Shown piece by piece: positions 54,360 to 57,644 of a stretch of 64,000 nucleotides of DNA (its first letter is position 1; each line of letters starts with the position of its first letter). Below the pieces are notes generated by a model. It ran no database searches. It saw only the letters and a program-made list of their open reading frames with translations, and was not told the DNA's origin. The translations under genes and the position numbers were made by a program. The stretch comes from Thermogladius calderae 1633 (lineage in GTDB: Archaea; Thermoproteota; Thermoprotei_A; Sulfolobales; Desulfurococcaceae). The stretch spans positions 992,001 through 1,056,000 of the forward strand of contig NC_017954.1 in assembly GCF_000264495.1 (NCBI RefSeq). Reading direction: 5' to 3'.

Positions 54360-56108
54360 CTATTTGATCTTCCTCCTAGCCAGGAGGACGACAACGTACC
54401 CAATGACCGCTATAGCCATCAACGACCCCACGTACAATGGGTCGGTGTACTTCTCCATGACGGTCACGAGGCTGACAGACGTCCAGGTTGTAGTGCTTGT
54501 CTGTGTTATAGTACTTGTCTGTGTTAGAGTCTGCCAGGAGGTGACCGTAGACGTTACATACGAGGTGACCGTTTCAGTCTTCGTCTCCACCATTATGGTG
54601 TAGATTGGGCCTGTTATTGGTAGAGGGGTGCCAGTAGAATTCAGCGGTGGCTGTATACCGAGTAACATGGCAACAGTCGGCGCTACGCTAGTGGACTGGA
54701 CCAGCCCGAGGACGCCGTGCCCGACGCCGGCCCCCACAGCGGCGAAGACCGCGTAGAGCTCGGGGTAGTAGGGCAGGTCCTGGTGGTTAGCGGTAATGGT
54801 CTTCAGCGGGACTACGTCGACAAACGGGCTCCCGGTAGGGGAGAAGCCTCCCAATGGAGCGTAGCCGGGCTTCGTGCTGATAACCACGTCCCCGACTCTG
54901 TCACCCCAGAGACCGAAGGCCGCTGCCTCGCTCTTCTTCATGACCACGCTGAACACCGGCTCCTGGGTCACGGGGTCTCTGACAGAGGCTAGGGCGTCCA
55001 TGACCTTTGCGACAACGCTGTCGTAGTCTGACGGGTCTACGATCCCGCCTGCCTCCCTGCCCTTCAAGTTGATGAATACCTGGTTGTACCCGTTGTACCA
55101 CGCAACCGTCTCGTTCAGTAGGACTACTCCACCACTCCTCTTCAAGAGGCCGGCGTTCTCGAGAATGTTGTTTACGTACACCAGCTTGGCCACAGGCCAC
55201 TGGCCGTGGTCCGACACAACGATGACCGCCGTGTTCGAGAGGTCGACCTCCGTGAGTATCATTTGTACGAACTCGTCAGCCCACTTCACAGCCTGCTTCA
55301 CGTAGTTGACGTACTTGGGAGCCGTCTTCGGGTCGTAGTAGGGCATGCTCGGGTCTGTAAGGCCGAGGAACTGGTGGTAGACGTTGTCTACTATCGGGGT
55401 GTAGGTCATCAGGAGATTCCAGTCCGTGTTCTTGATAAGCCACCTCGTGAACTCCATGAAGAACCTGTTCGCGAAGTAAACCGTCTCCATGTAGGTGTCC
55501 TCGTCGTACCAGCCGTTTGCAAGACCGAAGTAGTCGCCGTCCGTTATCATACCCGTCTTCGTCACGACCTCGTTCCAAACCCTCCAGGCAACATCCCTAT
55601 TGCTGAACCACCTAGTTGCGGTCTCAAACGGCCTCGTGAGGCTCCTGTATACTCTGAAGTTTGTCAAGGAGAGGTTGAGGGCCTTGAAGAGCGGCGCTAT
55701 AACGTATGTGTTCCCCTTGTAGACGAGGGTTGTGTTCAAGGGCTTGCTCCACTCCCCCTCTCGCAGGACAGCCAGGGCGTTACTCAGGTCCTTAGACCTC
55801 GGGACTATAGCGACCCTGTCGGGGGTGCCCGAGCCGGTGGTGTCTACTATGTAGAAGTACCAGGTCTCGTCGCCGAACGTGAACGAAGCCTCCCAGGCCT
55901 TGTACACGGTGAGCCCAGGCAAACTACCGGTCCAGCCGGAGGCCTCCGCCACGTTCACGTAGTAGGCGGCAGGGACCGAGCGGTTGGTCGTGTAGAGGGC
56001 CGAGTTGGACGGCGGGCCCATGGAGGAGTCGTAGGGGTTGAACACCATCGAGCCCCTCATCTTCCCCTCCCAAGCCCACGGGTCGCTCTGCGGGAAGGGG
56101 TTCTGGTT
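54360..56108 (-). pseudogene. Surface alkaline-phosphatase-superfamily phosphodiesterase, 3' fragment
   Basis: The frame codes for the C-terminal two thirds of a nucleotide pyrophosphatase/phosphodiesterase-like ectoenzyme. Counted from ATG 56060 it keeps the late metal ligands D225 and H229 (TPIVDNVYH) and D284-H285 (VVSDHGQW), then a Thr/Ser-rich stalk and a C-terminal membrane helix (residues about 538-560) with basic end RRKIK. The N-terminal part with the first metal aspartate and the nucleophile threonine is absent. The frame reads sensibly past the ATG to a TGA at 56109-56111 (QNPFPQSDPWAWEGK), so the ATG is not a true start. The gene's promoter and signal peptide appear at 57561-57690, beyond a TnpB-like element. 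It is very likely inactive. Confidence 0.7.
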
Positions 56109-56286
56109 TCATAGCGGTTTGTGTTGGTTGATATCTCCGCTCGCCTCATCACCCCCTATCTAGCCTCCTCACCCGCTCTTCGGGAGCCTGTCTCCCTCGA
56201 GCGAATGAGGTGCTTCATAGAAGCCCTTCCTCCCCCTCACAACTGCTCATCGAGTTCATAGTGGGCTCCTCAATATATTTATTTTG

Positions 56287-56314
56287 GACAGAAACGTTTA
56301 TAAGCATTTCTGTC
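56287..56314. promoter_or_regulatory. 28-bp palindrome around the TATA-like box of the AbrB-like/TnpB-like pair
   Basis: GACAGAAA (56287-56294) and its exact inverse TTTCTGTC (56307-56314) flank CGTTTATAAGCA, whose centre TTATAA is itself palindromic. Twelve of fourteen base pairs match. The TTTATAA core lies 32-39 bases before the ATG at 56336, where a TATA box belongs. A dimeric protein bound here would block initiation; the small AbrB-like protein encoded next is the obvious candidate, but that is inference. Confidence 0.6.
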
Positions 56315-56335
56315 ATTCGATTATGTAGGGGACTG

Positions 56336-56488
56336 ATGATGTCTGAGACTTTCGTATTTAGGGCCACTCTTTCTAAGCTTGGGAGAGGAAAGTCCCTTGG
56401 CATCTATATTCCTAAGAGTGTTGCTATGAAGATGAAGCATCTGTATGGTAGAGAGGTGGTTGTGGTTGTCTACACTGTTGTTGAATAG
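56336..56488 (+). CDS. Small AbrB/MazE-like DNA-binding protein
   Basis: This 50-residue protein resembles the swapped-hairpin AbrB fold: a first strand FVFRATLSKLG, then GRGKSLGIYIPKSVAMKMK (the strand-helix unit seen in AbrB and MazE-type proteins), and a last strand EVVVVVYTVVE. ATG 56336 (or 56339) follows GGGGA. The stop codon overlaps the start of the TnpB-like gene. Such proteins act as dimers that bind palindromes and as antitoxin-type repressors. A palindrome covers its own TATA region. The family call rests on pattern, not on search. Confidence 0.6.
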   Translation: MMSETFVFRATLSKLGRGKSLGIYIPKSVAMKMKHLYGREVVVVVYTVVE

Positions 56489-57551
56489 AGAGAACATAGG
56501 GCGACTCATTGAAGCGGTGGCGGTGAATGGAAAACTGGTAGTAGAAGACGGGGAAGACTATATGAAGCTACTTAGGCTGGCGAGAGCCTATTCAAAGACC
56601 GTGAAGGCATCGGTGAATTATGTCATTAAGGGTGTCTCGCACAGCGATACGTCTAAACGCCTATACAGTATATTACCGGACTATGTGTATCTCGAAACAG
56701 CTTATAAAAACGCTAAGACCATAGTGTCGTCTGCGACAAAATGTGAGATAAAGAGGTTCTGGACTGCCTCGAGGGGGAACAGGTTCGACTATGGGAATAG
56801 GAATATAAAGCTGGTACCTAGAGAAGGCTTCTTTGAAGTACTGATTAAATATCCTTGGGACAGAAGCTGGATTAGAGCTAAAGCCTTCTTCGGCGAGAAG
56901 TACATTCCCATGCTTAGAGAGCTCGTGGAGCTGGCAAGCAGAAGAGAAGAAGGCTATGGTGTGGTAATAAGCTTTAAGGAGTATCCCAAGATACATATTC
57001 AGGTTCCTATACAGCTATACCTGAAACACTTCTCGAATACCCAGCAAACCAGTGGCAGAGGCTTTGTGGCTGGTTTTGATTTGAATAGCGATAGGGTCAA
57101 TATGGTAATTGTGGATAGAGATGGCGAAATAGTTTATGTGAAGAGTGTTAGGTTCCCCGAGGTGACGTCACACGGTTCTCCTGCCGAATTAAACAAGCAG
57201 AAAAGACTGCAAGCATTGTCTCGTTTAATCAGGTTAGCAAAGCTAGTGGGGGCAACCCATGTAGCTTTCGAAAACCTCCTCGATATTAAAAAGAGGAGGT
57301 ATACCAGAAGCCCTAGTGCTAATAGGAAGATAAGTAGATTCGCTAAGAGGCAGCTTTTACTACACGGTATATTGAGGAGCTTGAGAGAGGGATTGTGTGT
57401 AGTGCTAGTAAACCCGAAGGGCACGACAAAATCAGAAGAGCACGAGAGGATCATGAAGACGAGAGGGCTAGACAGACACATGGCATCCGCATACCTAATA
57501 GCCTTAAGAGGGCTAAGTAGGATTCATATCAATAGCTATAAACAGACATAA
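56481..57551 (+). CDS. TnpB-like RuvC nuclease lacking the zinc ribbon
   Basis: This protein of about 356 residues is related to IS200/IS605 TnpB, the RNA-guided nuclease ancestor of Cas12. Counted from TTG 56481, the RuvC residues are D200 (GFDLNSD), E264 (VAFENLL) and D331 (GLDRHMASAYLIAL), so the catalytic triad is complete. The usual four-cysteine zinc ribbon between the second and third motifs is missing; its place is taken by VNPKGTTKSEEHERIMKTR. The N-terminal half is helical and basic, as in the RNA-binding part of TnpB. Start TTG 56481 overlaps the small gene's stop; starts back to GTG 56445 are open. Similar zinc-less proteins are annotated as TnpB-related accessory proteins. Confidence 0.75.
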   Translation: MNRENIGRLIEAVAVNGKLVVEDGEDYMKLLRLARAYSKTVKASVNYVIKGVSHSDTSKRLYSILPDYVYLETAYKNAKTIVSSATKCEIKRFWTASRGNRFDYGNRNIKLVPREGFFEVLIKYPWDRSWIRAKAFFGEKYIPMLRELVELASRREEGYGVVISFKEYPKIHIQVPIQLYLKHFSNTQQTSGRGFVAGFDLNSDRVNMVIVDRDGEIVYVKSVRFPEVTSHGSPAELNKQKRLQALSRLIRLAKLVGATHVAFENLLDIKKRRYTRSPSANRKISRFAKRQLLLHGILRSLREGLCVVLVNPKGTTKSEEHERIMKTRGLDRHMASAYLIALRGLSRIHINSYKQT

Positions 57552-57560
57552 AACCCAAAA

Positions 57561-57644
57561 CAGCGGTCGTAGGGCGTAACTCGGCGGTGTGACCGAGACC
57601 AATAGGACTGCGAGCACTATAGCGAGGACGAGCGCCCTATTCAT
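57561..57644 (-). pseudogene. Signal-peptide fragment of the disrupted phosphodiesterase gene
   Basis: From ATG 57644 the minus strand reads MNRALVLAIVLAVLLVSV followed by TPPSYA-LRPL: a textbook signal peptide with a basic start, a hydrophobic core and an Ala-ending cleavage site after residue 24. GAGGGTG lies six bases upstream as ribosome site. The frame then runs into the TnpB-like element and stops at 57513. Position and direction fit the lost 5' end of the surface phosphodiesterase at 54360-56108. Perhaps 200-260 codons between them are missing, so insertion was accompanied by deletion. Confidence 0.6.

Follow-up and report, generated by a model that had tools for sequence, protein, structure and literature searches.

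TnpB proteins are RNA-guided nucleases with a zinc ribbon, and in the TnpB systems considered here the nuclease mRNA yields the guide RNA from its 3' end; in IscB (OMEGA) loci the guide RNA gene is located upstream of the nuclease gene. Proteins of the AbrB/MazE fold are repressors and antitoxins. Archaeal TnpB-linked non-coding RNAs with kink-turns bind L7Ae (PMC3124441), and RNA also guides the TnpB proteins of IS607, whose right-end element RNA may contain a kink-turn (reRNA; PMC11061315). Here we report on an insertion element of approximately 1.48 kb (56099..57574, plus strand) in Thermogladius calderae 1633, in which a small AbrB-like gene precedes the gene for a TnpB-like nuclease without a zinc ribbon. 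The element lies in a stretch of 64,000 nucleotides (contig NC_017954.1, positions 992,001 to 1,056,000), hereafter referred to as the window, and coordinates are window positions unless a locus or genome is named. It is ordinary in being a TnpB-type insertion element and unusual in that the zinc ribbon is missing, that a swappable regulator sits on a palindromic promoter, and that its only structured RNA is encoded opposite the genes, at the left end. We consider it probable that this left-end RNA represents a guide RNA relocated to a divergent gene, under repression shared with the nuclease.

The nuclease and the gene in front of it

The nuclease (357 amino acids; 56478..57551, plus strand) starts with TTG at 56478 (or 56481) and ends with TAA at 57549-57551, and the small AbrB-like DNA-binding protein in front of it (50 amino acids; 56336..56488, plus strand) starts with ATG at 56336 (or 56339) and ends with TAG at 56486-56488, such that the two open reading frames (ORFs) have approximately 11 nt in common. 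An earlier note on this DNA had described a 50-residue frame whose stop codon overlaps the start of a RuvC protein, and the frames are located exactly there. As the pairing recurs across Thermoproteia and beyond, chance is ruled out, and the small gene/nuclease pair is real and conserved.

The RuvC triad consists of D201 (57078-57080), E265 (57270-57272) and D332 (57471-57473; alignment A1). Among 34 aligned sequences D201 and E265 are invariant and D332 is nearly so, with a rare exception, and neither the window nuclease nor any of its 33 aligned relatives has a CxxC motif or cysteine pairs between E265 and D332; the place of the zinc ribbon is taken by a conserved short loop, NP(K)GTTxSxEHxxxMxxxGLDRHxASAY. 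This bears out the statement in the earlier note that the RuvC protein has all three acidic residues and no zinc-ribbon cysteines between motifs II and III. Pfam gave nothing significant for the nuclease, and NCBIfam returned TIGR01765 at the cut-off together with weak TnpB/Cas12f2 matches; phmmer and hmmsearch gave no match for either the nuclease or the small protein among the PDB sequences. The AlphaFold2 model of the nuclease (predicted local distance difference test, pLDDT, 89) matches Cas12f (Z 20.7) and ISDra2 TnpB (Z 15.2) over nearly the whole chain. With respect to membership in the TnpB family, the triad and the whole-chain TnpB/Cas12 fold are present, the zinc ribbon is absent, and an omega-RNA overlapping the tnpB 3' end and right end is not supported; the zinc ribbon is also missing in several Cas12 types. 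Homologues of the nuclease were identified in 74 of the 229 genomes of the class (E 1e-5), and no relative was found in the viral contigs searched.

The small protein of the window has no match in Pfam, including PF04014, and the label AbrB-like therefore rests on its family. Specifically, PF04014 matches weakly in six of 26 relatives (best E 0.024), and clear PF04014 genes (E 3e-10) occupy the same position in a sister clade. The best Foldseek matches are RIFT Ph1, MazE and VapB, all weak (E >1; Z 3.5 to RIFT Ph1). The AbrB/MazE-like character proposed in the earlier note is tentative, drawn from the PF04014 matches of relatives and sister clade and the weak structural matches to MazE and other cradle-loop proteins, and lacks Pfam support in the window protein itself. 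DUF2080 (PF09853), a 'putative transposon-encoded protein', is likewise a small archaeal transposon protein; it was rejected as the family of the small protein, since the model finds no member in the T. calderae genome, weakly matches one of the 26 relatives (E 0.047) and is not significant for the relatives taken together.

We assigned the upstream gene for 106 homologous nuclease ORFs from fetched loci, where the same place is often counted twice: an AbrB-like gene precedes and overlaps the nuclease gene in 59, a MazE/AbrB gene is present in 7 and a ribbon-helix-helix (RHH) gene in 12, and 28 have no such gene. Mapped on a tree of the 76 distinct (de-duplicated) nuclease sequences, a quick tree with some long-branched deep joins, these four states require 8 changes, as compared with 32.6 when shuffled. 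One nuclease clade has the AbrB-like gene in 37 of its 40 members, the other three copies being truncated or frameshifted; sister clades have a true MazE/AbrB gene or an RHH gene at the same place, and a clade of 20 nucleases, which includes a second copy in the T. calderae genome (L002), has no regulator gene. The MazE group includes contigs of Baldrarchaeota and Odinarchaeota, and the RHH group a Thermococci contig. At L059, L055, L065, L063, L115 and other loci the RHH gene exactly replaces the AbrB-like gene and overlaps the nuclease start.

That the position of the regulator is constant while its fold changes favours a regulatory role and disfavours a specific protein-protein antidote. 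Judged from these sequences, the small gene is a swappable regulator and not an obligate antitoxin. A fixed pairing of the two genes is refuted in its obligate form by homologues without the small gene, the criterion set by the earlier note, and confirmed in a clade-specific form by the 37 of 40 members. The same note had likened the module to toxin-antitoxin control, and the gene order and stop-start overlap do resemble mazEF, AbrB/MazE and RHH folds being the usual DNA-binding domains of antitoxins. We nevertheless regard direct, antitoxin-like inhibition of the nuclease by the small protein as very improbable: the family members are 47-54 amino acids long, i.e. a DNA-binding domain with no extension able to neutralise a partner, unrelated folds such as RHH exchange at the position while the nuclease is unchanged, and one nuclease clade has no regulator at all.

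The promoter palindrome and the left-end RNA

Upstream of the small gene there is a perfect 28-bp inverted repeat centred on the TATA box, GACAGAAA-CGTTTATAAGCA-TTTCTGTC (56287..56314, not strand-specific), which we predict to be an operator within a symmetric promoter. It is the sole site of its kind in the 1.36 Mb genome (a single contig of 1,356,318 bp) when up to two mismatches are allowed. Across the AbrB-like clade an inverted repeat is centred on the TATA box in front of the small gene, and the arms change together, e.g. GACAGAAA/TTTCTGTC in the window and GACGGGAAA/TTTCCGTC in L071. In a set of 20 representatives that differ in their arms, the complementarity of cognate arms amounts to 5.55 of 9 positions, compared with 4.82 for permuted arms, a value reached in 15 of 20000 permutations, although relatedness may inflate this statistic. 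Because the palindrome coincides with the TATA box and its arms covary across the clade, it is likely to be an autorepressor operator. A dimer of the 50-residue protein would bind the palindrome and repress the nuclease operon, and repression would presumably extend to the divergent RNA. The symmetric TATA element could drive transcription in both directions, and the left-end RNA usually has its first conserved motif 29-47 nt from the TATA centre. The self-regulated module envisaged in the earlier note is hence supported by the conserved upstream gene together with the unique and perfect palindrome, from which we infer repression.

The approximately 190 nt that separate the left end from the TATA box are conserved even between groups with about 50% identity in their proteins. 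They harbour a structured RNA with three hairpins (56097..56282, minus strand), the candidate relocated guide RNA, which reads leftwards out of the element and overlaps no coding sequence of it. The terminal hairpin (56097..56157, minus strand) has its closing stem on the element boundary and is, in the window, a kink-turn-like variant with a GAU bulge, GA opposite GA and one extra A; many groups have a canonical kink-turn at the terminus, e.g. AGGGG-NAU-GA-GGAC / GUCC-GA-CCCCU and GCCGU-AAU-GA-ACCC / GGGU-GA-ACGGU. An automatic kink-turn scan gave hits in 25 of 36 left ends, some plainly spurious, and about 19 at the terminus were counted; these numbers were not used as a statistic.

The fold z of the window left end is -4.5 for the minus strand and -2.4 for the plus strand, and the means over 11 elements are -4.7 for the RNA strand, -3.1 for the other strand and approximately 0 for the 3' end of the nuclease gene. 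When 36 left ends were aligned globally, consensus pairs were few; a subset of 14 sequences gave a clean structure, i.e. a three-hairpin consensus with 82.6% of cells paired and 22 pairs with two-sided change, for which the covariation score is 0.301 as compared with 0.169 for shuffled and 0.09-0.13 for slid sequences. For the consensus of the 36 left ends, whose structure was chosen on the minus strand, the fold is -7.6 on the minus versus -3.2 on the plus strand and the pairs comprise 85 G-U versus 8 A-C cells. This strand difference, the extent of the structure (three hairpins over approximately 185 nt, including a kink-turn, which is an RNA motif) and the Rfam listing of the sequence as a small RNA (sRNA) all argue against the hairpins being DNA features, used in transposase recognition or end folding as in IS200/IS605, with an incidental transcript. 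That they sit at the terminus, that standalone units (see below) keep both ends like a miniature element and that the ends of group B elements carry short palindromes would fit such a role, which we nonetheless find improbable.

The covariance model R1 of the RNA, for which the window is a training sequence (152 bits), locates the RNA upstream of and antisense to nucleases that have AbrB-like, MazE or RHH genes; the MazE- and RHH-associated relatives with an RNA match stood outside the training set. By alignment, the nuclease clade without a regulator has the same terminal RNA motif. Moreover, the RNA is a homologue of Rfam Sso133, which is detected above the 44-bit gathering threshold in six Sulfolobales left ends (five at 87-92 bits and one at 52) and, below it, in the window (26.8 bits at 56165-56228, opposite the nuclease strand). 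At the tnpB 3' end, across which the earlier note would have sought an omega-RNA, there is no RNA signal, and the candidate occupies the other end and the other strand. We rejected a canonical omega-RNA for the 3' end of the nuclease gene, given a fold z near 0, no synonymous constraint and only about 23 nt from the stop codon to the right end of the element (57552..57574, plus strand; non-coding and without RNA structure signal).

We propose that the left-end RNA would be transcribed divergently from the symmetric promoter, with a scaffold that ends at the element terminus and a 3' continuation, the flanking host DNA to the left, that would act as the guide. The RNA would bind the nuclease, taking the part of a guide RNA moved from its usual place at the tnpB 3' end, and the ribonucleoprotein would recognise and attack the empty donor site after excision, which would favour retention of the element. 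An RNA encoded opposite the genes might instead be regulatory or antisense, e.g. limiting expression of the element or serving as a platform for L7Ae, with the nuclease relying on a conventional 3'-end guide RNA; transposon-linked regulatory RNAs are known in Sulfolobus (PMC3674436) and a canonical omega-RNA at a tnpB 3' end has been reported in S. acidocaldarius (PMC12817955). This explanation deserves consideration but appears unlikely to us, for the RNA lies clear of all coding sequences in the element and accompanies nucleases with as well as without a regulator gene, and the nuclease 3' end has the unstructured, unconstrained and short character given above.

Several points weigh against a relocated guide RNA under shared repression. 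At the window left end the fold of the plus strand, too, is better than that of shuffled sequences (z -2.4), the left-end DNA structure could also serve a transposase, and the view of Sso133 as an expressed RNA derives from its listing as an sRNA in Rfam. Weak RNA matches in the canonical order, i.e. 3' of the nuclease and on the same strand, are present at L108:3605-3782 (19.6 bits) and L124:3881-4053 (21.2 bits); in L124 the nuclease ORF is broken and a serine-recombinase fragment lies between nuclease and RNA, and we treat both matches as suggestive only. In group A elements the flanks read A-GG-C-R, and since the bases to either side of the GG core are fixed, the side of the target-adjacent motif, and hence that of the guide, is not readable from flank conservation. 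Finally, database searches gave no significant match for the small protein of the window itself, and its Foldseek matches are weak.

Element ends, movement and standalone RNA units

The element ends were defined by comparison with a same-genus genome (L153), in which a gene for a type I phosphodiesterase-like protein of 721 amino acids is uninterrupted. The left junction, between 56098 and 56099, joins host sequence GCGGGAAGG to GGTTCTGG, and the right junction, between 57574 and 57575, joins ...GTCGTA(GG) to CGTAACTCGG with a 2-nt ambiguity due to the shared GG. The 3' part of the interrupted host gene is at 54360..56098 (minus strand) and its 5' part, with the signal peptide, at 57575..57644 (minus strand); 364 bp of host sequence between two AAGG^C sites are missing in the window strain. 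The insertion in the relative L037 is simple and located at AGG^CA, where the element lies between TCTAGG and CAATTT; two genomes with an empty site read TCTAGACAATTT and TCTAAGCAATTT. For L034 the left flank corresponds to GAATGGG^C in another genome (L170), the right side of which is rearranged. These junctions are those of a GG crossover without target duplication, AGG^C in the window and L037 and GGG^C at the L034 left flank; group B elements and L002 have other bases at their junctions. The Sulfolobales copies share sharp ends approximately 1.5 kb apart. The earlier note had missed the ends of the element, the palindrome at the TATA box and the left-end antisense RNA.

In IS607 recombination the overlap dinucleotide is GG and the crossover proceeds without duplication (PMC4058570). 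No gene for a serine recombinase TnpA is present between the element ends, and the element is non-autonomous and probably mobilised in trans by an IS607-like serine transposase recombining at GG. A Y1 transposase of the IS200/IS605 type was rejected as the mover because PF01797 (Y1 HUH transposase) is absent from the T. calderae genome. Elsewhere in this genome there are two complete IS607-type TnpA-TnpB pairs, at G000:C1:1122358-1125756 (L204) and 1354224-1356318 (L205), and the L205 TnpB (428 amino acids) seemingly also has no zinc-ribbon cysteines. The regulator-less copy, L002:420-2700 (G000:C1:1143580-1145860), is a distant zinc-less element that splits an endonuclease III/MutY-like gene between LPGVGR and YTAGALLSFAYGKPAPVVDGN.

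The RNA covariance model matches in 74 of the 229 genomes, several of which have no nuclease match at E 1e-5. Among 20 inspected loci most are RNA units amid ordinary host genes. Standalone units of approximately 300 nt have a TATA-like sequence 5' of the RNA (L194 and L195 in G203, L184 and L185 in G025, L190 in G124), and their matches reach at least 10 in one genome, with some such genomes having no nuclease match. Within one genome, two units share 98.7% identity over 300 nt, the similarity breaking off at the 3' end of the RNA. L190 has kept the right end, promoter and RNA of the window element and none of its genes, and L202 the RNA and the small gene. Thus, the RNA with its promoter is often what remains after gene loss. 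We also noted a CRISPR array (DR25 repeats) adjoining a copy of the element (L050:3698-4484), and a HEPN/MNT-like gene pair that has a nuclease element on one side and a standalone copy of the RNA on the other (L198:2780-3590).

Relation to described systems and implications

The element resembles TnpB of IS200/IS605 and IS607 (ISDra2 and ISFba1 TnpB) in its RuvC triad, whole-chain fold and mobile-element context, and kink-turns have been reported in archaeal TnpB-linked RNAs and are possible in IS607 reRNA. It differs in having no zinc ribbon, a small predicted repressor gene in front, and a structured RNA encoded at the left end, opposite to the nuclease gene, where theirs runs across the tnpB 3' end. 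With IscB (OMEGA) loci it shares an RNA gene upstream of the nuclease gene; the nuclease family is another one, the RNA is antisense, and the guide would be at the 3' instead of the 5' end. As in mazEF and vapBC toxin-antitoxin operons, a small AbrB/RHH-type gene precedes and overlaps the nuclease gene and the promoter has a palindrome, whereas here there is no antitoxin tail, the fold is swappable, one clade dispenses with the gene and the partner is a TnpB. For Sso133 (RF02814), the same RNA as in the Sulfolobales left ends, the Rfam description is limited to a Sulfolobus sRNA, and a link to a nuclease element was not found in the searchable literature, the original Sso sRNA reports being outside its scope. 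Likewise, in the literature covered, which leaves out most subscription journals, we found no description of the present arrangement.

We lean, with some reservation, towards a separate archaeal TnpB (OMEGA) branch, which would have its own guide RNA gene at the left end and on the opposite strand, reading the left flank, and would be co-repressed with the nuclease by a swappable repressor (AbrB-like, MazE or RHH) at one symmetric promoter; the standalone RNA genes could supply guides in trans. The arrangement is testable in genetically tractable Sulfolobus. If true, it would provide a function for the orphan Sulfolobus sRNA Sso133 and would predict many standalone guide RNAs in the genomes of Sulfolobales and Desulfurococcales. 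Guide RNA and nuclease, uncoupled and placed back to back under one repressor, would then be a natural move for a transposon nuclease in the direction of a system that, like CRISPR, has RNA genes of its own.
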